DNA of 64,000 bases from Hydractinia symbiolongicarpus (Eukaryota; Cnidaria; Hydrozoa; Anthoathecata; Hydractiniidae). The position numbers and the translations under genes were made by a program. Numbering within the stretch: position 1 is the stretch's first letter; the number at the start of each line of letters is the position of its first letter. The notes under the pieces are model-generated. The model was not told the DNA's origin. It saw only the letters and a program-made list of their open reading frames with translations, and searched no databases. Location: contig NC_079875.1 in assembly GCF_029227915.1 (NCBI RefSeq), forward strand, positions 16,487,001 to 16,551,000. The letters are read 5' to 3'. Below, piece by piece: positions 1-57,602 of this stretch.

Positions 1-1405
1 ATAGTTTCGCCAATGATTAGACTAAGTATCTCTTCTACTCCGAGAGTCTGTATTCCCAGATTATTTTCGTTGAGATGGACAAGACTACATGCAAAAATAC
101 CCCATGCAAACTTATCAATATACTTACTTATCAATATACGCGCAGAGCCTCTTTCCTTCCTGTTTGCTTTTGTTTGTTACAAGAATGTTCTAGAAATTGT
201 CAGCATCAGATAGTGCTGACCTTTGTTTCTTTGGCTGAGATTTTATAATATTCTTAGAAAATACCATTAAGAAATGTTCCGTTAACAGGTTATTTATATA
301 TTCTTGCAATAATAATTTATTTATAATTTTTATACCTTGACCTTCTGAGCGGTCTGGAGAGTAATATCATTGACGGAGATCATACAGAAGCTGTTTTGCA
401 GCCCCTTTAGGAAATAGAAATCAAAAATTATGAATAAACAATCATGCTTAAAGCTTAATTGAGTTAAAAATTGACACGGATGTTAATAATTTAACTTTTT
501 TAAATTTAATTATAAGATTCTCTTCCAAATTTAAGCGTTTTATTTTAGAAAGCCAAGTGAGTCATAGAGGTCATCGTTTATACAGCATATTTTGATAAAA
601 TTCTATTTGGGATGTTTTTTCAAATTTTCTAAACTATTGGTTTTTTCAGAATTTTCCAAATTTGTCAAATCTGCAAAATTAAGTACACGTGGAAAATTAG
701 AAAATTCAGCAATTCGTCAAATTTTAAGCCAGAGTAAGTAGAACGCGATTTCCTTCCCTTAAAATATTTAACTGTCTCCATCAATCATAAAGGATATCAA
801 TGTAAGTGTACCTTGTATGAATATTTCATAACGAAAGTGTAGTTTATTTTGGTAACATTTTTACGCCATTCCTGCAAATTAATACCTGTGAAATTAACCC
901 GTCAAAATGACTACCATTAAAAAACAATGTGCGTTGTTAAAATAATAAAATGATTTAGTTTTTAAAAAGACAATAATGGTACGAACATGCAAAGAACAGA
1001 TGGTAACAACATTCAACTTGCATTGTTATACATTCTAGCTGTTAAGATTTATATTTTGAAAATTATACAAAACAAGAGCGAGACAATCTTTTTATTTCCC
1101 ACAAAAGATTTATTCTGTGGGGTTCGATGAACTCATTATAAATATTACAAAATCGCAAATGATCAATTACCTTGACATCACCTTTAAAAAATAAAATAGA
1201 TCCTGTGATTAAGTATATTTTGCCTATATAGCTTTCAGAGATACTAATTCATTTTCAATTTCAACCACAACAAAATTTTTTTTTAATGTTAATTTTACTA
1301 ACATTGTCATTAAATAATTTTAACCGCCCGCGAAAAAAAAGTTGCGTTCATATAAAAGACCGTTGAACGCTATCTAGGAATCTTGATAAATTCTTTTAAA
1401 AAACT
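1..1405. other. Intergenic, nothing recognised
   Basis: AT-rich sequence with no ORF that looks like protein and no clear repeat. The small plus-strand ORF at 13-213 has no recognisable motif and is treated as chance. Confidence 0.5.
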
Positions 1406-1935
1406 TTATCGGTGATGATAAGGAGTTAAATCATCAATGTCCTGCATATTCACATCGATATCTGGTGCTGATATTAACAGTCTAGCACATTCAATATATA
1501 TATCAACCACGACACGCATAATGTAAAAGTGTTTCATTGAAAATGTTTCGTACATTCACATCAATGTGGTACCAACAACAACAACTTCACACATTCAATA
1601 TGGCCACCACAAGATGCATCATGTAATGGTGTGTTTTTATTACTGTTAACATTGTTAATATTTGTCACGTCATGACTAATTAAAACTTTTAAACCATCAT
1701 GATGACCATCACCTGCACAGGCGTGATATGCATTCCAGTTGTTTTTATTTACATCATTCACATCACTACCAGCATCAATTGAACATTTTACTATTGATGG
1801 TCTGTTGTACCATGCAGCTTCCATAAGCAGTGTAGCTACTTCCACAACCGTCCATCATTTCAACGATATCTGGATCATCAATAAGAATTGATTGAAATTT
1901 CTTGGGATCACCTTTTTTAATAATTTCAACAATTT
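1406..1935 (-). pseudogene. Decayed ankyrin-repeat exon (third copy of the window's ankyrin module)
   Basis: Read on the minus strand, an acceptor-like TTTAG ends at 1936 and the exon opens in phase 1, with peptide EIVEIIKKGDPKKFQSIL, then LLMEAAWYNRP, DAGSDVNDV, HDVTNIN and TPLHDASCGGHIECVKLLL. These match, in order, the ankyrin exon at 20991-21457 (LLMEATRYNKP, DAGSDVNAV, HDVTNIN, TPLHFASKGGHIQCVKL). The reading frame shifts near 1845, near 1565 and near 1500; the last part (IECARLLISAPDIDVNM) is a further repeat that ends in TAA at 1406. No upstream exon of a parent gene was found at higher coordinates. The three frame breaks make it a pseudogene, although assembly error cannot be excluded from one sequence. 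Homology to the other two copies is clear by eye. Confidence 0.78.
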
Positions 1936-3151
1936 CTAAACACGAATTATATAAATACAAACAGTAATTCGGAATAATTCGAAATAAGAATGAAATAAAT
2001 AAAAAATAGATATAGAATACTGAGTGTCGCATTATGCGTATTCCTACATTTTATGCTTACCATTCGATAGCAAAGGAAAAGTAAAAACAAGTTATCCATC
2101 CGAAGAAAAGTCATTAAGTATAACTTATCCGGCGATCATTGCCGAACATTTTTTCCCTTACTTTTAAAAAATCATGTCGTTTTTCCTGCAGCATGTATCT
2201 TGGGCGTTTTTGACTTATAGGCAATGGCACGTTTTAGTTTTTGTCAAAATTGTAAGTATTTAAAACGACATACCAAAATTGATGTGATATAAAACCTTGA
2301 TCTTTATGTTAGTACTGTTTTTTGTTCAAATCAACAAAATTTAGATTTCTTTGTGATCTAAAAAAATGGATAAAGCTGGACTGCTCTGGATAAAAAAGAC
2401 ATGCCGAACATTACGGTCACAATATTTTTTTTAATACCTTTGTTAAAATTTGCCTAAATATTAAAACTTAAACTTGAACTTAAAGCATGGTACACAAGAA
2501 CGAACAACGCGGAAAGTGAGAATCAAAACGTCATTTTGTGTCATGTGAAATAAACTGTCGCGGGGCAAGTGGGTAATTATTTCGTATTTTAACACTTGTG
2601 TACAACTCTTTCTCCAAATTGTTGGATAAACTAAAGTTTATCATATCTAATATTCGAATTTTTATAATTTTTCCTACAGCCTATTTTGCACTCAATTGCG
2701 CTTTTGTAAAAGTATTAATCGAAGGCGTGTTGTTTTAAACTGGTTTGTTTTCTTCTTACTTTTTAAAAGTCTTTTCGCGATTTGTAAGACTACGAGTTAG
2801 TATAATGATACAGGGTTCAAATAAAACAGCAAAAATTGCTTTTTTTTCTCTTTTTGAACGGATGTTGAACAAGTTTTGACAAACTAACAAGAAGAAGAAC
2901 GAAACATTTAATATACATTACAACAGGTGAATTATACACTTTGGTTTAAAAGTATATACGTGGAAAAGTTGAAGGATATATATATATATATATAAATTTT
3001 TTTGCTACAGAATTCTTCGAGTATACTTAAAAGACATTGTATTTTTGGAATATCAATCCATACTCTTTTGTCCCAGAAAATTAATTATTCTTTATTTACC
3101 TGGGTAAGTTCATGTAGGCAAAATAATTATTTCCAAATTATTTATTTTATA
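1936..3151. other. Intergenic, short TA microsatellite only
   Basis: No coding signal seen. A short TA run lies near 2978-2995. The minus-strand ORF reaching 2032 is an extension of the ankyrin relic through its intron. Confidence 0.5.
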
Positions 3152-7461: not shown

Positions 7462-8220
7462 TCACGTATCCAAATTATGCAAAATAATTCTTCTTAATAG
7501 CGTGTCTAAGAAAGAAAGCGTACCGTTCTTCTCGTGTTCAATTGTAAATTGAATCTTCGGGTGCAAATTATTGATATGTTCATGAAATGGGTCTAGATGT
7601 GCTCTTTTTATTATTAAAAAGACGTCATGCACAAATCTTTTCCAAACTCTTGGAGCGTGATCTGCAGTTGTTAAAGCTGTAGTCTCATGAGCCTGCATAT
7701 ATATTTCAGCTACAACAGAGGATGTTGGACCACCCATAGCCACATCGCCAGTTTGCGTAAAGAAGTTACCGTCAAATAAATACCATGTTTTTGTAAGTAC
7801 AATTTGGACCAAGGACATTAGTTTGTCAATAGGGATGCGTGTTTTGTTCTCATACTCATCATCATTTAGCAGTAATTCCCCGATGATATATAATGTGTCC
7901 TTTATCGGTACATTTGTGTACAGTGAAGTAACGTCAAATGATACCATACACTCGTCGTCCTCGATCCGTATGTTTCTGATAAATTCCGAAAACTCTTTCG
8001 AGTTTTTACAGTGATCACTCTTTGTGTAATTGCTAAGAATGGAAGCTAGGTATTTCGATAAATTATAAAAAAGTGATCCTGTACACGACATGATTGGGCG
8101 TATAGGAATTACAGGTTTATGTATTTTAGATGATGATTACGATCATTGCCCGTCGATGACAGCTGTAGCTGTCGAAACGTAGCCTAGAATAAACTCGCTT
8201 GTTCATGACATGATATTATT
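7462..8220 (-). mobile_element. Penelope-like reverse transcriptase fragment, inverted
   Basis: A 209-residue minus-strand reading frame (7462-8091) carries RT motif A (FDVTSLYTNVP), motif B (GDVAMGGPTSSVVAEIYM), motif C and the following FTIE...LSFLDTLL block; RPIMSC just upstream is the expected N-terminal neighbour. Motif C reads RFVHDVF where active Penelope-like RTs have an Asp-Asp pair, so one metal-binding Asp is His. The frame is open but truncated at both ends, with no GIY-YIG. Between 8140 and 8200 a tail-like sequence including CGAAACGTAGCCTAG resembles GAAACGTGGCCTAC at the end of the copy near 9295. It is a fragment placed in opposite orientation to its neighbours. Confidence 0.75.
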
Positions 8221-11959: not shown

Positions 11960-12802
11960 ATGGATATCAAAGTAAAGGACTACCACATTACTGCACTGGT
12001 CATCATTATAAGTAACACTGTACTATTATAACATCTGTGGAAGCTGGGATTAAACAGAACCAACATGTTGTTTGTTATTTTAAGTATTTCTGACTTTTTT
12101 GTTGGGCTGGCAGCTGTGACACTACATGGATTTGTAATAATAGCTGATTCTAATAATGACTCTTTTTTTGCCGCTTTTATATTTTTCAGCTCATTCCCAA
12201 CTAGTTTTTCATGGTTGATGATTGTAATAATATCAATTGAACGATGTTTAGTTGTTACACATCCAAGAACACATTTAAAATAGGGACGTCATTTGTTCAA
12301 TTTATTTTTAACTTTGGGGTTCTTTGGCCTCGCCTTGTTTTCATTATGGAATGCTGTAAATGCTTATATCAACTTTGCAAAGGAATTTTTCTTAGAAAGG
12401 AAAGAAAAAGAATTTCAAGAAAAGCTTCAGTTATCTACATACATTTTTGTTCTCACTCTGGGTAGTGGACAAATTATACTATTCACAGCAGGAGCCCTTT
12501 CACAATTATACCTGCTGTATTATATTCGAAAAAGATACAACTCGATGAGAGGGAGCCGGCATACCCAAACTAGTTACAGTGAACGTGTTTCGAAAACAAT
12601 AGCGATTATGTTTTTTTGCATATGCGCGTGTTATCTTCCGCACATTATCTCTTATATATTAAAACACATAATTAAAATTTGGACTTCACCTAAGCTTTAT
12701 TTGAACAGTTTTTTTAATGCAATTATTTTACTACGAAGAAGCACACAGATGAGGAATGTACGTGGACATTCCACTAATACGGTTACCAATGCTGTCACAT
12801 AG
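11960..12802 (+). pseudogene. Rhodopsin-type GPCR pseudogene with two in-frame stops
   Basis: One plus-strand frame runs from ATG at 11960 to TAG at 12800 and spells a class A receptor of 280 codons with two internal stops: TAA at 12029-12031 after TM1 (ITALVIIISNTVLL) and TAG at 12281-12283 just before TM4. In order: TM2 LFVILSISDFFVGLAAV; TM3 ending IISIERCLVV (DRY-like ERC); TM4 LFNLFLTLGFFGLALFSLW; TM5 STYIFVLTLGSGQIILFTAG; TM6 TIAIMFFCICACYLPHII; TM7 SFFNAIILLRRSTQMRNV, where the usual NPxxY is replaced by NAIIL. The paralogue at 9.5 kb reads HLKWG where this copy reads HLK-stop-G, so the TAG is a TGG-to-TAG change. No frameshift is needed. Ligand unknown. Recent loss, or stop readthrough, are both possible. 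Confidence 0.8.
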
Positions 12803-17510: not shown

Positions 17511-20500
17511 ATGGCTGCAATACTAACAAAACTTAATAGAATGTTGGAATGTCGGATTTGTCTTAATACTTATCACAAACCAAAGCATCTTAATTGCGGC
17601 CATACGTTTTGCCAAGATTGTCTAGATGGCATTTTAATTTTTAAAGAAGATGGAAGCGCTGAACTTCATTGCCCATTGAGATGTAGCGAGAAAACATTGA
17701 TAGGTCAAGACCAGACAACATCATCATTGCCAACCACATATTGCTTGACTGAAATTTTGATGAAATGTAAGTATGAAAATTCTTGACAAAGATCGATATG
17801 TTTAAAGTTACAATTAAGTTTATATACATAACAATTCCTATTTTTTATTTTTTTTATTTTACACAGAGGAATCCCTCAATGTTTATTATCAACTTGGTGT
17901 CCACAAACCGGAAGTGCAATATCGGTTTGCCTTTTGTATACATTGCAAGGAAATGCTTTCCCGTATTAAATGCAATTATTTATTCGGAAAAAAGGTTTTG
18001 CTTTGATTCTATTTCTTATTAGTATTAACTTCGTTATAACTAACACTTTTACAGAACATATAACAAACAAGATACACGAAGTATTAAAAAACCTACAAGA
18101 AACAACTTTTTCCATTTAAATAAGAAATGTCGTTATTTCAGCTGTCATATTGTACAGTACTCCCGCAGCTAGCTATGCCAACATCTTAGTCTATAAAACA
18201 TTCTTAATTATTTCTTGCTGCTGTAGGCGCCGTGGTGATGAAGTTGACTCTACATCAGATGAATGCAAAGATATCAAACAACTATCAATACACTCCAGTG
18301 CCAAACATGATGCTGGTAATGGTGACGACTGCAAAAACATAAATACCTTTACCCAAATGTCATCACCCAATGGTAGTTACAGTAGAAGAGTGCACGATAT
18401 TCAACCATTTTGCGAACAACATAAATTACCTTCCCATAGCGTATGCATTGAGTGTGATAACATGTTTGTGTGTGTGTATTGCGTGCACAGAACACACAAA
18501 AACCATAAAACCAAAAACGTCACTGATTTTGGTTTTGAAATTAGGAACTGGTTTAAAGAACTTATTGCATACCGTCGAAAAAAAAATGTCGCATTTGGTC
18601 AGTTAACACGAAAGTTTAATGAAGCTTTGATAAATCTAGAGCGTGAGAGAAAAAGATTTGTGCGGGCGTTGGAAGAGCGAAAGTTAAAGAAAATGGCAGA
18701 GTACCTAAAAATGCTGAAGAAAGAAGGAAAAAAGTTGCTGAAAGAATTTGATGAGAAAACGGAGGAGTTTAAAATAGAAGTAAATGCAGCTGTTAATACT
18801 GCCAATACTCAAGTAGAAGAAATGTCCGATTGCTTAAGCGTGCTTAATTCAAAATCAGACTTTAATCTTATAACAGACAAAATAGAAATTGAACGAAGAA
18901 TTCACTGCATAGTTTCTTTACCGAAATATATTCCAATTTTTAATTCACACCTTCGTGAAATTAAAAATGAGGATTTTCTTGCGCATCCATTAGGCGAACT
19001 ACAAATTTCAATTTGCAATACAAGTAAAGGCAATGTGAATGAATTGTCTATATTCAAAAACTTTATCGAACAAAGTGAGAATAGTTGGGATTATTTGCAA
19101 TTGACAAAAGATTTGATGGCTTCAGCTGCTCGTTTAAAAGGTATACTTATCATTTCCATTCAACATTGACTTTGTTAAGTGTGTATCCAACATCAGATGG
19201 TTGTGGGTCTAATATGTTAAATTCATTTTTAGAGTATGAAGAATCTCGTAGAGAAGAGGACGATTCCTGTCAAAATAAATCAAAAAGGTAATACTAATAA
19301 GAGGGTTGCTCTTCCATTTAAAATTACTTTATATCTATTTTAAGATAATTAATTTATTTGGAACCAAAAATTGAATGTTTGTCAGGCATAACTGAGTAAC
19401 ATGTGCTTAGAAAAACGTGTGGACAATACCAAGTTGGATATACAAGTTCCACTTCTCTCTTAGAGATGTGAAACCAATCATTGAGCTGCCGATGGAGAAG
19501 TCTTGGTCCTTTAAAGGTTTGATTTTTTATACCATCTTGTTTTTAATCAACTTAACCAATGTAAGAACACCCGCTTTTAGTAGAGAGAACTAGCAGAAAA
19601 AACAAAGAGGGTTACAATTATTGGAATTGTGTATTTAATTTTTGACCTTAATTGTTATCCCTAACCGTAACCTCATATCGAAATTAAATCTAGGGTTTTT
19701 TATTAAATGTTCTTCAATGTCTAAGTTGGTTAAGAACTAGACATTCTAATTGTAACGTCAATGTAGTTGAAACTAATCTAGCACTGGAAGGCAAATTGTA
19801 TTTTTTACCTTAGTTTTACCTTACCTTAAACTTTGAAATCATATTATACACACTTCTGAATGTCGAGGATGATTTAAAGGGGCGGGAAAAACGATTGTAA
19901 CTACTGAGAACAAAAATAACAAACCTAAATCATCTAGTACTTTATTAGGATTTTTGGCCTAATCCGCGAAATTAAGCTCCCTCAAAAATCTGGAAAGTAG
20001 TCATCCGCGAAAATTTGTCCCAGGGAATTTTTTGAATAATTGTCTGATTCGCGAAGTTTAAATAAGAAAATTGTTAGGGCCGAAATCTCCACTTCTACAA
20101 GCGTTCGTATTTTCCCTCACTTCCTTTTTCACCTTTCGGTTTTTTCATGGGAAAAGAAACTAGCAAAAGTTATGAGATATAATCTATTCTATCTTTCAAA
20201 ATAAACTACCTCTAATTATCGATTACAAACAAAGTATCTACTTTTGTAAATTCAATTTTAAGGGGATTTTTTGACAATAGATTTGCCTGTTTGTTACAAA
20301 ACTTAACCGAGCGCTAAAAAATAGTCAAAATGTCGAAACGCAAAATTAAATGCCCGTGACATGCTCAATTTATGCAGATGAGCTCAACCACAAAATTAAA
20401 TCCCTGCGAAAATTTATTACAATAAAACATATTGGACATCGAGATATAACTAAAATTGACAGAAAATTGGCCTACATATATTTGATATATATAATTTTTT

Positions 20501-21457
20501 CTATATAAGCGCTTTCTTCTAAAATTAAATTATTTGGAAAAAGGAACCTTTTTTACCTTTTTATTCCACTGCATTTATAAGCAATGATTCTGGTACGAGT
20601 ATTAGCACGTTTACAAAGGAAATTAAAAATAGATTTACTGATTTCACTTTCTTCAAACTTTGAACCATCAAACAAAATTTGGTTTGACTTTAAGTGGAGT
20701 TCAATCATCGGTTAACACGTGGTCAAAAATCATCAACAGTTCTGAAGTAGAATTTTAGAATTTTTATGTTTTTATTTGCTAACTTTTCACATCTATTAAC
20801 AGCTTTTCATGTCCCAAATTTAATGTTCCTCGTTTTAGGCAATTTTTTATAACGTGCTAACAAATATTCGTACCAAGTTTTGTGGTAACGCGATGTCTCC
20901 TTCGTCACTATCCCCCTTCCCACGGCCATACAGAGCCACCAAAAAGCCTGTTTTGAATAGGTTAAAATATTACCACATTATCTGTTTTAGGCCTAAGTAA
21001 AATCATCAAGATGGGCAACATGGATCAGCTAAAATCAATTTTGCTAATTCAAACAAATGTGGTTGAAATACGGAACAACGATGGCGATACACTCTTAATG
21101 GAAGCTACTCGTTACAATAAACCACAAATGGTCCAAATTTTGATTGATGCTGGTAGTGACGTGAACGCTGTGGAAAAGAATAAAATCAATGCATATCACT
21201 ACAGCGCATGTGTTGGTCATGAAAATGTCTTACAAGTACTTATTCGTCACGACGTTACAAATATTAACAAGACAATGATGTACGATTGGACACCATTGCA
21301 TTTTGCATCTAAAGGTGGTCATATTCAATGTGTTAAGTTAATCCTGGCTGTACCCCAAATTAATGTGAATATCAATAACAATAATAATGAAACTGCTTAT
21401 GATGTTGCTAATAATGACACTGTCAAACTTTTAATTGATGGACATCAAAAGCAATAA
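17511..21457 (+). CDS. TRIM-type RING/B-box/coiled-coil protein with C-terminal ankyrin repeats
   Basis: Probable E3 ubiquitin ligase of the tripartite-motif class with ankyrin repeats as target-binding end. RING exon 17511-17766: CRIC, then CGHTFCQDC, then CPLRC (last pair spaced by three, usually two). A second exon around 17867-17994 carries a CIHC pair. Main exon 18227-19140: B-box2 (CEQH, CIEC, CVYC, H-x3-H around 18408-18505), then a long charged coiled coil to about 18850. Then 19233-19287, 19464-19516 (DVKPIIELPMEKSWSFK) and the ankyrin exon 20991-21457, with LLMEATRYNKP and TPLHFASKGGH repeats, stop TAA. From 18227 on all junctions keep frame (phases 1, 2, 1). Upstream they do not: joining 17766 to 17867 creates TAG, and no simple link to 18227 keeps frame, so either exons are missed or the RING part is decayed. 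AATAAA at 21513. Confidence 0.72.
19517..20990. other. Large intron before the ankyrin exon
   Basis: About 1.5 kb between linker and ankyrin exons. CCGCGAAA-type words recur near 19962 and 20007 and ATTCGCGAAG near 20048, hinting at an old repeat. No ORF of interest. Confidence 0.4.
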
Positions 21458-48957: not shown

Positions 48958-51900
48958 ATGGCGGCAGCAGTGCCTGCAACAGGATGTAATTACCAATCTT
49001 TGATCGCGAAAAACGAATATCAAGTTAAACTAGTCACATTCATCAATGAAGGCGGTGACCACTTGCGCTCGATGCTGCACGACCCTGCACGTGGGAACAT
49101 GCCAAGTGACGAAAATCAACTTTATTTGGCATTGGTACCATTTAAGAAACAACTAAATCATTTAAAGAAAGATCAGTTGGAGATTGTGTTTCCACAGAAT
49201 AAACAAACAAATTCACAACTTTTTGACATCCCTTTGTTATGTGACATTTTAATCAACTGTTGTCCTGGTATAAAAGCACCAAATGGTGGATGGAAAACTA
49301 AAAAGCCACAGTTGAATGACTTCAGTGATGGTGCTGATATTATTCGCATCAGAAATGCAAGAAATAATGTTATGCATGGAAGAGCACTGACTTTGGCACA
49401 ATATAACCAATTATGGAACACCATAGAAGGTATATTACAAAGACTTGGCTACGACATAACAAAAACCCAGGACTTGAAGTCTGGTTGCTTAAAGAATTTG
49501 GACTTGTTTAAGGTTAAAATATTGAAAGCAAACATTGAAGTTTTAGAAGACGTCGTCAAACAGAATAAAGATGATACTAAACAAAATCAAAAACAATTGG
49601 AAGATGAAATTAAACGATTGAAAGATGAAATGAAAACAATAAAACTTATTGTTACTTCACCGTCGTGTCGTCCGAGAACATCTCTGGTAGAAGAAACTAC
49701 GAAGGAGGAGGCTAGGTAAATAAAATATTTCCTTTCTCCATTTTTATTCAGTGTTATGTCTATTTTTTTGTTACTGTTAATTTATATTTCAACCTCTTCT
49801 TTAGTTATGTGCTGTTGAAAAATAACCAAGGAAACATTGTCATGCAATTTAAGGACGCATATTCTAACTGGACTATACAAGGGATAAGCGTCACAACATT
49901 TAATAACTTTACAAAACAATTAAAACAGCTTCAACTCAACGATGATTACGTTGTGGAAAAGAATCAAGGAAAATTAATCCTGGTTATTTATAAACAAATT
50001 GTGAAAGTGATTATCGACTTGTCAATCATGTTAGTTGACAACAATAATACTTCTCAATTGATTTCAATTGAAGGTGGGTTTTTCATTTGTTTTATCTAGA
50101 CCGTTATATTTGTTTATTTGTATAATTGCTTTAAGTATTAACTTTTTTTCTACATGACCCACATTTGATGAGCAAATAAGATATTTTCTTCTTTGCTGAT
50201 TAAATTTTGTTTTATGATCTTTCGATGTAGTTTGATGGAAAAAAAATCTGTAAACTTGATAGAAAGATAATTAATTTGCCAAAGACGTTTATTCAGAATT
50301 TACAGCGTAGTCTCAGAAGTTGGCATTATTTGATAAGAGTCATCCACACACGGTCCACCTTAAGCTAACAGTGTGCCAACGTAAAAATGAAGCAATGGAA
50401 AGTAACTGCTCTTTGTAAAAGAACATAAAGGGTTTTACCAGTAAAAAATGAAAGCATTACGTAGGAAGAGTTTTTTTTTTAATTTCATGTTTAAAAAACA
50501 TTTGGTGTTATTTAAATTTTTAAAGGAAAGCGCTTTTCATCAATGCGAGGTTGGAATATTATCTCCATCATGAGTTTACTTTTTAAAAGAAATGAATGAA
50601 GATGTACATTTATAATTTTTCTTCTTCATTTGATGTTTAAACATAAGGCGTCAGAGCTGCATCACGAGTAAAAAGACACTACAAAAAAGATTCCTTCAAT
50701 TCCAACAATTAATTTTTTGAGTCGTTTTGAATACCTTTTACTAAATTTCGTCCAGCGATTTATCCTACGATTTCATTTTAAAACCATGGTAGTTTATGAC
50801 TTCCTTTTTTAAATCACTTAACATTCAAGTGAAAATGGTTTTAAAATGAACCAACCATTTTCGTTGTTTGCCACTCCTTGCAACACATGTCCCTCTTTGA
50901 CGACTTGTGACATGTTTCAAATAGTCTCATGCTCCAGTTTAAATATAACACAACAGCAAAGCATTATAGTGTTAGCATGAAAAATGGGAGCTATCTTTAA
51001 TACAGCCAACTACGATTATTTTATTATTTGCATTTATAAAAAAACCTTAATTTTTTTTCTTTATGTTCAAACGTAACAATGTTTTGGCGCATTCTTGAAG
51101 ACGCTAAAGTTAGTAACCGAATTCGCAAGCAAAATCCTTTTTTATTCATGTTCTTAAATTCTGAAATGCTCATTTGTAATTTTTAAATTGAATGAAATGG
51201 TGAAAGCTTTATGCTCTTAACATTGCTAGGTATGGAGGACGAGAATGGATGCCTCTAAAATTAAACATCACTAGAGAATTGCAATATTATTTCTGTCTGT
51301 CTTTTAAACGACATCAGAATCACTTTTAAAAGTCTAAAAAAAAAATAGAATCTCTCTAAAAACTCTTTAAAACGTTCATCTACAATGATACCTTTTTTAC
51401 CATGTTTTTGACAAAAAAATGCGTAAAAACATCTATGTATGTACGAGAGAGCTTGACTGCAGGAAACGTTGCTCGTCAAAAATGCTGCTGTCACTACACA
51501 CGACCAACATAAGTCCTAGCATACTTGTTTTGGGAAATTCATTTAAATGGAAACAGGATTTTAATGTTTACTACTGCTGTATTCCATTAATTACCGAATA
51601 TAGGATGCAATCAGCAATAATTTGTGAAACTAGCTTGACCAACATAATTCAGGTTAGGATGAACAATAACATCGTTTGCTAGTTGACACTTTACGTAGGT
51701 TAAATGTAAATTATCTGTGTAGGAATGCTGCAAATAAAATTATATCTATGTTTTCATTCTAGATATTACATTGGCAATGGCACATCAGTGTACCATGAAT
51801 CATTTGAATGTGATAACTCACAACAGTGGTACATTATCTAAACAGATCGATTTCATTGTCAAAACAAAAACAGATGAAGCAGATATTGAATTTCTATGTG

Positions 51901-54900
51901 GTGGAAGTCTGCAACGAATGACAGGTGCAGAATATGAAAAATTTGAAAGAGGCTACACTCATCGTTATTTTACAGTCAAAGACATGTGTCTGGCCGAACC
52001 ACTACAGTTTCCACCTCCAATGCCAAATCAGAAAAATTCCACTGTCGCACAAAGGATAAAAGACCTTATGATTAAATCACAACATAAATTATTTACAATA
52101 TTTACGCATTATAACACGAAAGAACATATCAAATTCTTAAAACTAGATAAAGAATTCCCTACTGACTTAGGAAGAACTGTTCCTGAGAATAATAGAATTC
52201 TACTGGTACTCCTTGATTCTATCATAAACATTCGTTATACAGAAGCAACAGATGCATTCAGTATACAAGCTGAATTTAAGTCAGGAGAAGAAGACCTAAA
52301 AGATCTATCCATTGTCAACAAAAAATATCTTAAAAGTGGTAACATGGCAATGATAAACATTGTAGCAGCTCCTAATTTTGAAAACACTCAGGACACTTGC
52401 ATATGCTCTGACTGCGACTTGCTGTGTAAAAGAACTTGGTCTGAGGATAAAAATATACAGGATTTCTTTTCCAATATTTTACAGAAATCAGAAGCTGAAG
52501 GTAGTGACATAAGTGGAAAAGAACAATATGTTAGCATCGTCAGTAGAATTATGTGTTTTATGGCTACAAGAGAATCGCTGTATTCAGTTCCTTCACTTAG
52601 CAAAAACACCCACGAGCAGATAAGTTCGCTAATATTATCTCCACAACAACTACGATATCTTTATAGCAACTCCTTAAGAAAAATCATAATCGGTCCGTTG
52701 GGCAGCGGTAAAACGGTGTTAGCCTTATCTCACCTTGAACTTACTTACAAACTGTCAGAAAGTGCCAGTGTCATTTATTACGTGATTTGGGACGATAAAA
52801 CATTGCTGACACAAGACATTGCGGGGCACGCTAACAGATTTGATTACAAAGCCAATGTCACAGTTGTAGTCAAAAATATTGTTGAGTTGGCAAAGGATTT
52901 AAAGATGAAAAAAACGCCGATCCTTTCTTATTTGCTGAAGTCGTTAGTTGAAAAGCACGTTGATGAAAAGCTGCATCTGATTATTGATGAATTGAACGGA
53001 GAACTGCTTGATATCGACGAATCTTCATCGTTCAAACAGTATTTGGAGACTGAAACCAAATTGCAGGATTCCCTTATTGTTTTCTTACCACAATCCATTG
53101 AGAAGCATAGAACGTTTATTTCACACGAGAAAGTCACAAGACATGACAAGTATAAATTTGCAGAAACAGGAATGAAGGTATTGAAACTTAACAAGGCAAT
53201 GAGAACAACCAAATTAATTTTTCAATTCTTACAGGCTTTCGAAAAAGAAGTAAGTCAGAAGAAAGTGACTATTAAGCTTCCAGAACAGGAATCTAATAAA
53301 ATCGATGATAAAATGACGGTTCGGATTTTTACAAAAATATCGAGTCCCTTATCAAAAATTTGTCGACAAATCAAACAACCACAGCAGCAACCGCAGGCAC
53401 AACAACAACCACAACAGCAACAACTGTCACAGCAACAACTACCACAGCAGCACAACCTACAGCAACAGCACCAGGAACAACAACAACAACAGCAGCAGCT
53501 GCAAAAACAAGAAAAAGTTATCAGTAGCAACACAGAAGAAGAAGAAATATTTGAAACACCAATTGATATTGATGTTGTTGCAGCCTCCATGCACGACAAG
53601 GATCTTTCAGAAAATGTTAGGAGTGACATAACATTAAATTTCAACACGGCAGATTTGATTGGTCATAATATCGAAGGTACAAAGCCCTGTTTAATACATC
53701 CATCAACTAAACAAATAACAGAAGAAGAGTTTATTCCAATGTTAGCTTTTGTTTTACAAGATGCATGCTTACGTCGCAGCACAAAGCGTTTGTTTATTTA
53801 TAACACAATCCGTCAGAAGACTCTATTTTATAAATTGCTAAAATTATTAAAAATCGATTTTGTCCACTACGATCAGTCCACTGATTGGAAAGTGTTGAGC
53901 AGTAAAGATATTAATGTTTGCGGGTTTCCACATAGTCAAGGTTATAACTTGCTGACTACTCCGGAGGGTAGCCGTGGTATTGAAGCAGCTGAATGTATCT
54001 GCATAATCGAAAGCAATGATTGTACGTTAAAACATTTTACGTTGGAAGCAATGTCCAGAGCGACACAAAAACTAGTCCTTCTTTCAACTTCGAACGTTTA
54101 TTCCTCGGATACAATAGAGTCATCAATTGGTCATATCATCGGCAAACTAGCACCTGAGTATCTAGTAGAACTCATTGTGGGGCCTTCCAGCGACGGGGAA
54201 ACAGAAGTACCGTTCACCAAGTTCCGAGAAGGTGAAAACAAAATATTTTTCAACATAAACACCTGCTCTTGGAAATTTGAAGAAATGGTGAATGATTTGG
54301 AACAAACAGTTGATTTTCAGCTACCATCCGAAAGCACAAACGCGCACGAGATCGTTATTAAAAAGTAAGTTATTTACTCCAACCAAAAAAGGAAGAACAT
54401 CTTGCAAATATAAAAATACCAATTTTTTTTTAATTTTTGGCTGTGTGGTAAAAAAAGACTGAAAGATGACGGAAATAAAAAAAGATCGAACAAAGCATGA
54501 CCATAACGCCACCCCTTCTAAAAACCTTTTGTCTGTAGGGTGCAGAAAGTGAGGATGCAGAGATGTAGCTTTTCACATCCTGTTTTCTTTTTTTTCTCCA
54601 GAATAAGTTGCCATCGAGCTATTATGACTAGTATTAAGATCGAACATTTAAGTTACTTCAGCTACCTAAGGTAATTTAGCTTTGTTTATTATTTAGCCTA
54701 TATCTTGTCTTAAAAATTTTTTCCTAATTAAATTCGAGCAAAAGCTACAGAATATGAAGTTCTATCTAATACATGGGAATTTTTAATAGCTTTAATTGTA
54801 GTACGTAAAAATTTTTGAAACTTTTTGTCAGGTTTAATAGGTATTATTCGTATCAAACAATATAAAAAGTATTTCCATCTATATTGTAAACGAACACATA

Positions 54901-57602
54901 AAATTTCATAGGGAAGAATTTAATTGTCAAAAATAAAAAAATAAGAATGGGTAAAAGAAGGAGGCCTAAATGGCCAAAAGTTTAATCAATCGAAGCCATG
55001 TAAATATATTCATCCGTAGCCACAGTGAGAATTCCAGCTTTCAACAAAGCTTTTTATTAAGCAGAAATAAACAAATAAAAATGTTTTGTACTAAAAATGC
55101 TTTTTAAATTTTAGTCTTCATCCTCCTGGAAAAGTCGATAACACAATCTGCTCATATGTGTCTGAAACATCATGTGCATTAAGTTGGGGAAGTGATGCCG
55201 ACAAATACACAGTTAAAAAACAAGAAGGAAAAGTTTGGAGCACATTGGCTAGTGGTATTACTTCTAACAAATACATCGTGGATGGTGTGAAGATTGATGA
55301 AGGATACAAGTTTTGTGTTATTGCTAGTAATAAGGTCGGACAATCAGATGACAGCATATTCTCTTATCGTCACAGGTAAGGTTTTGTGACGATAATAAAT
55401 AACCTGTTTCAAATTTGGCAAACTTCAGAGGTACTTATTTTTTCCTTATTTTTCTAGGCATCTAAAAGTTAAAGGTATCACATTTAGAGGTAAAAAAAAT
55501 ATTTATTGTTAATGAACCACGAAACCACGAGAAGTCACTCTTTTAAACAACCTTGTTATTTGACAGTAAAGAAAGCTTGGAAATGCTACTAAAACTCATA
55601 ATCGGTCATTCATACTAACATATAAGCTTTAGCAAGATCATTATTCCTAATATAATCCCAACTATATATTTATGATATAACCTGCAAATTTAACTAAAAT
55701 ACAACTAGGTAATAAAATCTAGTGCATGCTTATAAATGTGGAAGGTTCATTAAGCTTGAACTTTTATTATCTGTGGATGGTGCAAAGCAATTATTGGTAC
55801 AACAAAAAGGGGGAGAGGGCTGATTGGCAAACGAGAATGGTCTGGCTTGTTCGGGTCATTTTCTATAACGCTTTTCTATCCTAAAAATTACTAGTGTTAG
55901 AACTGATTTTATTTTCCCTCTAGGTTTATTTATTTTCATTTATTTTTGTTGGCATGCCCAAATTTTTTAAACGAACTACGACCATACGCAGCAAATCAGT
56001 GGACAATAATCGACCGTTTAAAGAAGTTAGAGAATGCAAAGAATTTCACCGTTTAGCACATCATACTAATAGTCATTCCCTAAATTATAGCAGAATTTCA
56101 AAAATCACTAACTTATCACCTAACAAATCACTTATAAATATTTTTATAAGCACCCTTCTCGAATAAACGAATATTTTGAAAACTAGAATACAACGAATTT
56201 TACAAAAAACCAGCTTTGTTCTTAAAATCATTTGAGCATGATATTTCATGTCAAAATGTCTATTGGTATTTCTATCTCTTTGGATAATAATCTTTTTTAT
56301 GAATTTCTCTTTTGTAACAGAATACGCGTTGTGGCTTAACAGTGATATAAAGCTATGTAATGCGGAGAATGCAATACACGTTTCCCGAATGACATTGCTA
56401 AGATTTTTAACTACTTGCTTATGATCTCATACATACAAGGTGTTGTGGGTAATGTGAACTCTTGTTTAAAAGACCTAATTTTCCTCAGAAAGCAAAGTCC
56501 TTGCCTGGATCTTGTAAAAAAAGTCCAGGTGGCGTAGTATAAACGAACGCCCCTGAGAGTTGATTAGATTTTGCTATCTTAGCGTTTACTTGAACATGGT
56601 GGTTTCTTTATAAATCGACGTAATTTAAATTCTCTTTGCGTTGCGTTGCAATTTATTGATTCATTGATTCATTGATTCATTTATTTATTCTTTTATTTTT
56701 TCATTCATTCGTTTATTCATTCATTTATTTATTTATTTTTAGACATTAAAACGCTTATTCTAAAAAACGAGATCAATAAGTTAAGACAAATACTCTCAAT
56801 TCACTCAAGCATTGTCCACATGAGAGACCAGTACAAAAACACACCACTAATATGGACAGCACGTTACACTGATTATCCATCTGTGATACAACTTCTTATC
56901 CAACATGGTAGCGATGTTTGGGCTAGGGAGAATTACCAAGCAAACAGTTTTCATCATGCTGCATGGAATGATCGTCCCAATGTTTTACAAGTTTTGTGTC
57001 GACACGATGTGACACACATCAACCGAGCAGATATTTTCAACCGAACACCGTTGTATAGCGCTGCATTTTATGGTAACCCCTCGTGTGTCGATGTGCTGTT
57101 ACATCATAATAATATTGACGTCACAATTACAGATAAATTTGGAAGAACTGCGTATGATGCTGCTGGGCTATGGAAAAATAAACAAAATCGTGAAATAATT
57201 AGACAGAAGATTAAAGATTACGAAGTAAGTTATTTTAATTAGGAAAAACAGCTACTTTTTGTGAAAGTATACAAGTTTTTGAAAACATTGAAAACATGTT
57301 CCAAAATAAAACAATAATAAGGCTGTTCTCAAAAGTTGCAATTTTGTTGTGAAGAAGAAAAGAAAAAAGGATATAGAATATGAAACTTTTTGTTTTAGAT
57401 GTCCTCATAAATATGTCAAGAATGAAATTATTATGTTTGGAAAATAATGTCCGCTTCATCACGTAAGGTTGTACTTTTATACATTGATGAAAATGTCTCA
57501 AACAAAACAAATAAATTTTTTTCTTAGATCTGTTATGAAGTTAATTTATAATTTTTATTTTTTATATTTCAGGCGAGAACTGCTATGAAAATTTTTATAT
57601 AA
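48958..57602 (+). CDS. HEPN - SF1-helicase-like NTPase - polyQ - fibronectin III - ankyrin protein
   Basis: Seven exons join in frame to 1477 residues: 48958-49715, 49805-50073, 51763-54364, 55115-55375, 55458-55489, 56743-57224, 57573-57602. Every junction has GT-AG and matching phase (2,1,2,2,1,0). Residues 1-185: HEPN domain of DZIP3-like type with R-x4-H (RNNVMH, 135-140), the RNase-type motif of HEPN proteins. 186-230: charged coiled coil. 554-564: Cys cluster CICSDCDLLC. 630-1120: P-loop module with Q-like LSPQQLRYL, Walker A GPLGSGKT (653-660), Walker B LHLIIDEL (746-753), a NKAMRTTK motif near 819, motif V-like GSRGIEAAECICII (to 1091) and motif VI-like LEAMSRATQKLVLLST (to 1118), as in SF1 or Schlafen-like helicases. 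880-925: Gln-rich insert. 1213-1292: FN3. 1308-1468: ankyrin repeats. Probably cytosolic; an RNA-sensing or immune role is inference. Joins need transcript support. Confidence 0.82.
50074..51762. other. Intron 2 of the HEPN/helicase gene
   Basis: About 1.7 kb of AT-rich sequence; the short ORFs at 51261-51494 and 51419-51682 are not supported. No repeat recognised. Confidence 0.4.
53378..53515 (+). repeat. CAG/CAA-rich polyglutamine coding repeat
   Basis: Encodes a Gln-rich run of about 46 residues broken by Pro, Ala, Leu, Ser, His and Glu. CAG and CAA codons are mixed, so the DNA is less pure than a plain CAG array. It lies between the N-terminal ATPase half and the motif V/VI half of the helicase-like module. 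Confidence 0.85.
54365..55114. other. Intron 3 of the HEPN/helicase gene
   Basis: Begins GTAAGT, ends AAATTTTAG. AT-rich; nothing else seen. Confidence 0.5.
55490..56742. other. Intron 5, with ATTC/ATTT tandem repeat at its end
   Basis: Tandem ATTGATTC, then ATTTATTC-type units run from about 56652 to the acceptor at 56742, standing where the pyrimidine tract would be. ORF 55954-56166 inside the intron shows no motif and no fitting phase. Confidence 0.5.

Follow-up and report, generated by a model that had tools for sequence, protein, structure and literature searches.

A Hydractinia gene family places HEPN or TIR domains on a predicted Schlafen-type helicase core and shares a hypervariable ankyrin exon among some of its members

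Animal HEPN_DZIP3 domains have been described in fusions with TPR, Zn-ribbon, RING, ankyrin, CARD, NACHT, DEATH and LRR modules, and in bacterial systems HEPN domains occur with superfamily 1 (SF1) helicases (PMC3710099). In cnidarians, proteins joining HEPN to NACHT are described in PMC8260672 and PMC10236652. A survey of 15 cnidarians, six of them medusozoans and Hydractinia not among them, reports medusozoans as being without RLRs and without prototypical NLRs or TLRs (PMC8260672). Here we analyse a gene of the hydrozoan Hydractinia symbiolongicarpus, together with its relatives. The gene lies in a stretch of 64,000 nucleotides, hereafter the window (G000:C1:16487001-16551000 in a genome search that covered 480,894,487 bases on 76 contigs), and encodes an N-terminal HEPN domain, a central NTPase and C-terminal fibronectin type III (FN3) and ankyrin domains.

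The gene resembles several described systems and departs from each. With the HEPN_DZIP3-NACHT proteins of NLR type that are expanded in anthozoans (corals and others), it shares the N-terminal effector, the central NTPase, the C-terminal repeats and the lineage expansion, but its NTPase is of the SF1 helicase type and its repeats form one ankyrin exon after FN3. The NLR plan of an N-terminal effector and a C-terminal repeat sensor is present in the family (HEPN or TIR; ankyrin). In hmmscan of the window protein and the 31 family members of our alignment A3 no NACHT or NB-ARC family was found, and the NPHP3_N, AAA_22 and ATPase_2 matches of a few members lay below cut-off where a cut-off was shown. 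With DZIP3/hRUL138 the gene shares a HEPN_DZIP3 domain carrying R-x4-H, whereas neither an SF1 helicase nor FN3 appears among the fusions that PMC3710099 lists. Schlafens of group III (SLFN11, SLFN14) likewise combine an N-terminal RNase domain with a linker domain and a two-lobe SF1 helicase-type NTPase, a succession that the window protein has by prediction. In the Hydractinia family, however, the candidate RNase domain is HEPN (or TIR stands there) instead of the Slfn core, for which the window protein gave no Pfam match; FN3 and ankyrin are added, and the SWADL/SWAVDL pattern was absent in the window protein and 33 relatives, some of them fragments. RIG-I-like receptors also join an effector module to a helicase-type NTPase, but theirs is an SF2 DExD/H helicase with a C-terminal RIG-I domain, neither of which was matched in the window protein with Pfam, and the Hydractinia protein has SF1 motifs and HEPN. 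In the open-licence literature, judged by title and start of abstract, we recognised no animal protein combining HEPN or TIR, an SF1 helicase core and ankyrin.

The reading that we favour, with a little better than even confidence, is that these genes encode NLR-like intracellular receptors of immune type, in which the switch is a Schlafen-type linker with an SF1 helicase-like NTPase rather than a NACHT/STAND ATPase. It draws on computed anatomy, motif conservation, predicted-fold resemblance, copy number, module swapping and the pattern of the ankyrin cassette. In such a receptor, a protein ligand would dock on the C-terminal ankyrin domain and thereby release the NTPase and linker from autoinhibition, presumably with ATP as the switch; the helicase lobes of SLFN11 have been described as held in an autoinhibited state. 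HEPN RNases act as dimers, and self-association of the receptor would bring its HEPN domains into contact and trigger RNA cleavage, which would arrest translation or kill the cell. Sister genes equip the same core with TIR, whose domains can be NADases, or with some other N-terminal module, and some relatives would diversify the ankyrin exon by gene-to-gene exchange and by selection acting on contact residues.

A preliminary description of the window had proposed a seven-exon gene joining HEPN, NTPase, polyglutamine, FN3 and ankyrin parts, and nearly all of this anatomy holds. The seven exons join in frame to 1477 codons plus stop, with GT/AG at all six introns, and the exon-3 frame stays open for 876 codons (random-frame chance about 3.5e-30 at this base composition). 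HEPN_DZIP3 was matched at 65.5 bits (Pfam cut-off 27), so that both the profile and the R-x4-H motif place the domain in that family. Five ankyrin families exceeded the Pfam cut-off, and fn3 did so for exon 4 alone (26.6 vs 25; 22.2 in the whole protein); the recognition-type modules claimed for the C-terminus are thus there, as is the glutamine-rich tract, which is predicted to be disordered. The region of exon 2 shows eight strands at residues 6-89 in the model of a relative, P0028.

What needs correction is the seventh exon. A duplicate of the gene (L042, G000:C1:12920600-12929400), about 3.6 Mb away on the same contig, is 98.0% identical to it over 8796 bases with the same exon borders; it could reflect either a true duplication or an assembly effect. 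It encodes P0001 (LOC130640398 isoform X2, 1471 aa, H. symbiolongicarpus) letter for letter, with the last exon ATGTCCTCATAA. Because the duplicate with its MSS last exon equals P0001 exactly, the corrected terminal exon of Table 1 is most likely the true one as judged from sequence; for the one first proposed we found no support, the duplicate not having been checked for it. The corrected window protein has 1471 aa and ends in KDYEMSS. Its relative P0002 (1475 aa, 92% identical in BLASTP) ends in KDYEMSL and is encoded on a contig of 4575 bases, which leaves no room for such introns; P0002 therefore looks like a single spliced transcript carrying all domains.

No Pfam family scored above cut-off in the NTPase exon, and NCBIfam and PADLOC searches gave nothing useful. 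Ordered SF1 motifs in two RecA-like lobes are present by motifs and predicted model, including the Walker A and B and motif V/VI-like blocks described before (Table 1; we take the motif names to correspond to those of UvrD). The predicted fold likewise agrees with the helicase-like NTPase that had been placed at residues 630-1120. For two predicted models of the core, the first Foldseek matches were SLFN11 and SLFN14, and the alignment to the SLFN11 S753D monomer reaches into the linker (model 45-774 on chain 356-897). By predicted fold, then, the exon-3 core would be a Schlafen-type linker followed by an SF1 helicase-type NTPase. In a viral fold library the matches were helicases of giant viruses and nidoviruses, a Hokovirus protein giving the best E (5.0e-13); we read them as reflecting the shared SF1 fold and argue neither for nor against a viral origin. 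Within the linker-like region, a C-x2-C at 52404-52415 (exon-3 residues 214-217) is invariant in the 31 sequences of alignment A2 and is possibly metal-binding.

Three protein searches, with about 8000 candidates scored in each, yielded 33 relatives, 25 of them H. symbiolongicarpus loci. All 25 organism-assigned relatives belong to this species; the last search missed three of four of its own query members, so that absence elsewhere is unproven. With an E limit of 0.01, the 31 A3 members carry HEPN_DZIP3 (13) or TIR_2 (3) at the N-terminus and Ank_2 ankyrin (20) and fn3 (14) at the C-terminus. Some relatives thus bear TIR in place of HEPN on the same core, and three TIR members retain an S-x2-C-x2-E pattern, presumably the region of the catalytic glutamate. 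P0012, P0014 and P0033 have in common, by eye, a third kind of N-terminal region, for which no Pfam family passed the cut-off; its likeness to a death domain was an impression by eye that Pfam did not support. P0022, P0026 and P0028 begin at the beta-rich region and may be truncated gene models. In P0003, P0004, P0006 and P0010, HEPN is followed by near-identical repeated units of the KQNQDDIKANKDNIQQNEDGI type in runs of very variable length, huge in P0006 (2230 aa).

At least 52 core-exon copies are present in the genome (74 rows matched, with two rows each for 22 copies), a lower bound for matches because they were scored out of 453 first-look candidates; some copies may be assembly duplicates. 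Thirty-seven lie on contig C2 and the rest on seven other contigs, and three of the 52 have an in-frame stop in the matched rows. In the core copies fetched, an FN3 exon lies an intron's distance away. The copy number, the replacement of HEPN by TIR and the hypervariable binding exon of relatives described below all speak against a housekeeping protein of RNA processing or surveillance. Such a role would suit the occurrence of HEPN domains in RNA processing and the conservation of the window copy relative to its duplicate, and we give it little credence.

In part of the family, the ankyrin exon behaves like a cassette independent of the core. We compared a HEPN clade of eight proteins (P0003, P0004, P0005, P0007, P0008, P0011, P0013 and P0014, the last without a HEPN match) with a TIR clade of seven (P0022, P0023, P0025, P0026, P0027, P0028 and P0030; TIR_2 matched in three). 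We kept five of the 20 ankyrin-bearing A3 members (P0001, P0002, P0009, P0018, P0020) out of this pool, since their ankyrin forms separate branches; A3 does not include P0006 or P0033. Between the clades, mean identity was 79% for ankyrin, 40% for the NTPase, 36% for the linker, 29% for FN3 and 20% for the beta-rich part; within the TIR clade it was 85% for the NTPase and 79% for ankyrin. Over the 15 proteins, the Mantel correlation was 0.97 between NTPase and FN3 and -0.07 between NTPase and ankyrin. Cross-clade identity jumps where the homologue of window exon 6 starts and drops where it ends, and genomic ankyrin exons have splice borders at those very positions. By sequence, the sharing fits recent cassette exchange or conversion together with strong diversifying selection. 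The window gene belongs with the excluded members, its ankyrin averaging 58% identity to the pool.

We looked for ankyrin exons in 22 gene neighbourhoods of contig C2. In 20 of them an exon was found whose matched stretch is free of stops; L055 and L056, 2-kb stretches placed by guess, held none. All 20 exons are distinct. Nine equal the ankyrin of an NCBI protein: the HEPN proteins P0003, P0004, P0005 and P0008, the TIR proteins P0023 and P0025, and P0026, P0028 and P0030 of the TIR clade. An array of alternative ankyrin exons like that of Dscam was unsupported within the fetched stretches, because each matching stretch held one ankyrin exon.

When five TIR-clade neighbourhoods were compared with three of the HEPN clade, one block of 580-725 bases at 86-91% identity spanned the ankyrin exon and some flank in 15/15 comparisons; one further shared piece (87-163 bases, 73-77%) appeared in three. 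When stretches closer to the cores of the HEPN clade were used, 15/15 comparisons shared a second block, in pieces of up to 475 bases at 80-97%, besides some shorter pieces. This second block is non-coding by eye, internally repeated, and lies about 0.7-1.0 kb upstream of the ankyrin exon in each of eight genes; it was not found in the 64-kb window nor in core loci L001-L030. It may mark or help exchange, or may be a common repeat. Such a block, the presence of core copies on eight contigs and a weak reverse-transcriptase frame elsewhere in the window are what one would point to if a mobile element had spread the core exon and the domain joins were by-products of gene prediction. With FN3 an intron away from the fetched cores, most core frames open and one relative, P0002, apparently a spliced full-length contig, we find that explanation hardly credible.

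Variation within the ankyrin exon is concentrated at putative contact positions. Entropy was calculated for 15 relatives: 18 were extracted, from which the window protein, P0001 and P0002 were dropped and P0018, P0020 and P0033 kept. This set differs from the cassette pool (P0005, P0006, P0009, P0023 and P0025 were not caught by the extraction pattern). Positions 2, 3, 5, 13 and 14 of designed ankyrin repeat proteins (DARPins), which we take to be the contact set, define 20 equivalent positions among 131 columns, and 17 of the 21 columns with at least 2 bits fell there (Fisher p 6.6e-15), although the same positions vary between ankyrin repeats generally and the enrichment was scored without a control family. 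With position 10, added after the result was seen, 20 of the 21 columns fell in 24 positions.

The 20 genomic exons tell the same story at the codon level. Against a pooled synonymous proportion (pS) of 0.047, the nonsynonymous proportion (pN) was 0.460 at the surface and 0.058 in the framework for the five prior positions, and 0.447 and 0.047 for six positions. Surface pN was 9.8 times pooled pS (bootstrap 7.0-16.0), and none of 20000 column permutations reached the surface-framework difference in pN. The pattern was already there in the first eight exons taken by themselves, and the last-fetched 12 gave the same ratio, 9.8; in these 12, three of which (P0003, P0008, P0026) belonged to the earlier entropy set, columns of at least 2 bits fell in the six-position set in 17/17 cases and in the five-position set in 15/17. 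Framework pN/pS was 1.0-1.25, and purifying selection on the framework is therefore not visible at this depth. Surface pS exceeded that of the framework (0.13 vs 0.04), which we read as a path-counting effect in multiply changed codons.

Within surface codons of eight exons, position 1 varied in 21/24 columns, position 2 in 20/24 and position 3 in 12/24. Transitions and transversions numbered 242:403 at surface positions 1 and 2 and 286:98 in the framework; the surface ratio fits near-saturation and leaves selection versus aimed mutation undecided. The signature of a diversity-generating retroelement was considered and set aside: third bases vary at some columns, and codons for the same amino acid differ no more at the surface (20/1107 pairs, 1.8%) than in the framework (511/22902, 2.2%). 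Since diversifying selection on recently homogenised exons explains the pattern, the retroelement idea is an open possibility only. A bolder proposal, which we hold to be improbable, is that one ankyrin exon, with some flank and the repeated intron block, is exchanged between HEPN- and TIR-clade genes while a dedicated process (cassette-pool recombination or mutation aimed at positions 1/2) diversifies contact codons beyond ordinary birth, conversion and selection, which would make these genes a new class of intracellular animal receptor with an SF1/Schlafen-like switch, actively diversified in the germline.

Hydractinia is a model of allorecognition, and the distinctness of all 20 exons would also suit receptors of colony allorecognition, analogous to fungal NLR-like incompatibility genes, whose variable ankyrins recognise variable self proteins. 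The domains, however, are of cytosolic type, and we consider this role very unlikely.

The window copy itself looks different. It differs from its duplicate at 19 residues; nonsynonymous and synonymous differences number 0 and 2 in the ankyrin exon, 4 and 3 in the NTPase, 2 and 4 in the HEPN part, and 7 and 2 in the beta-rich exon 2. Exon 2 is the fastest-changing part between the two copies and the domain least alike between the clades. The earlier suggestion that the gene is an innate-immune candidate gains support indirectly from the relatives (HEPN or TIR on one core, copy number, hypervariable ankyrin contacts), and is weaker for this copy.

Several observations weigh against the reading of the family as NLR-like receptors. 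The ankyrin exon of the window copy shows no visible diversification and stands outside the hypervariable pool. For the other 11 of the 20 genomic exons the clade label comes from the core alone, and hypervariable contacts could serve recognition other than immunity. The Schlafen alignments have root-mean-square deviations of 9.3-16.9 A, probably owing to a different placement of the lobes. In VIA-align UvrD reaches the score of SLFN11, and in Foldseek viral SF1 helicases do so too; searches of PDB sequences with the exon and two profiles found no match of weight, the likeness to Schlafens is one of predicted fold only, and the SWADL pattern is missing. Finally, wild-type SLFN11 neither bound nor hydrolysed ATP in vitro, and its S753D form binds without hydrolysing; the resemblance therefore does not imply an ATP switch.

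Some of these points would favour a Schlafen-like nucleic-acid sensor, whose SF1 core binds foreign RNA or DNA and whose ankyrin is an adaptor docking host partners: the top fold matches are SLFN11 and SLFN14, and the window ankyrin exon is conserved relative to the duplicate, as expected of an adaptor. That the fast-changing part of the relatives' ankyrin is the putative contact face, and that both the Schlafen RNase core and the SWADL pattern are lacking, make such a sensor unlikely in our judgement, if still a serious contender.

If the family is immune, a hydrozoan would have assembled an NLR-like repertoire around another engine, one chassis carrying HEPN as well as TIR, and this would suggest that Schlafen-type cores accept exchangeable effectors. 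It would also offer an ankyrin exon diversified by nature, for which ligands could be searched directly. In several of the dozens of receptor-like genes that this colonial animal carries, the swappable exon, with its seemingly hypervariable contact residues, resembles a natural library of designed binders made by evolution; unlike DARPins, these ankyrins are natural, germline-encoded and attached to receptor-like cores.

Table 1. Features of the window gene, and the repeated block of pool genes (window positions unless a locus is given).
Feature	Position	Strand	Content	Remark
Exon 1	48958..49715	+	start codon, HEPN_DZIP3 domain, charged coiled-coil-like segment	same exon in duplicate L042
HEPN_DZIP3 match	49153..49491	+	residues 66-178	
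R-x4-H motif RNNVMH	49360-49377	+	residue 135	
Exon 2	49805..50073	+	beta-rich domain	no family match above cut-off
Exon 3	51763..54364	+	linker-like domain and SF1 NTPase	866 complete codons
Schlafen-linker-like region	51765..52634	+	exon-3 residues ~1-290	predicted fold
SF1 NTPase	52635..54179	+	exon-3 residues ~291-805	motifs and predicted fold
Walker A (motif I)	52692..52715	+	GPLGSGKT	lysine invariant in 31 sequences of A2
Walker B acidic pair (motif II)	52986..52991	+	DE	invariant in 31 sequences of A2
Motif III-like	53085..53111	+	LPQSIEKHR	loose match
Motif IV-like	53199..53210	+	MRTT	arginine invariant
Glutamine-rich tract	53374..53494	+	within predicted-disordered stretch, exon-3 residues 511-593	predicted local distance difference test (pLDDT) below 50
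Motif V-like	53967..53984	+	GSRGIE	alignment A2
Motif VI-like	54045..54074	+	EAMSRATQKL	arginine absent in one relative, P0020
Exon 4	55115..55375	+	fibronectin type III domain	Pfam match above cut-off as exon alone
Exon 5	55458..55489	+	short linker exon	same exon in L042
Exon 6	56743..57224	+	ankyrin domain; 482 bases	homologous to relatives' cassette exon, outside that pool
Corrected terminal exon (most likely)	57399..57410	+	MSS, stop	12 bases after an AG, match to duplicate
Terminal exon first proposed	57573..57602	+	open, AG-flanked	
Repeated block	L036:1764-2160 and matching places in L031-L038, L051, L053-L056			pool genes, both clades

Elsewhere in the window, an open frame at 20918-21457 (+) encodes ankyrin sequence that shares 30-44% identity with the ankyrin exon of the family; no neighbouring core exon was matched. 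About 1.75 kb ahead of it, the frame at 18120-19166 gave a weak B-box match that stayed below cut-off. More family-related ankyrin-coding pieces, at 27-48% identity, occupy 1391-1936 (-). Weak matches below cut-off mark the reverse-transcriptase-like frame at 7465-8136 (-; RVT_1) and a rhodopsin-type GPCR fragment at 12284-12799 (+; 7tm_1).

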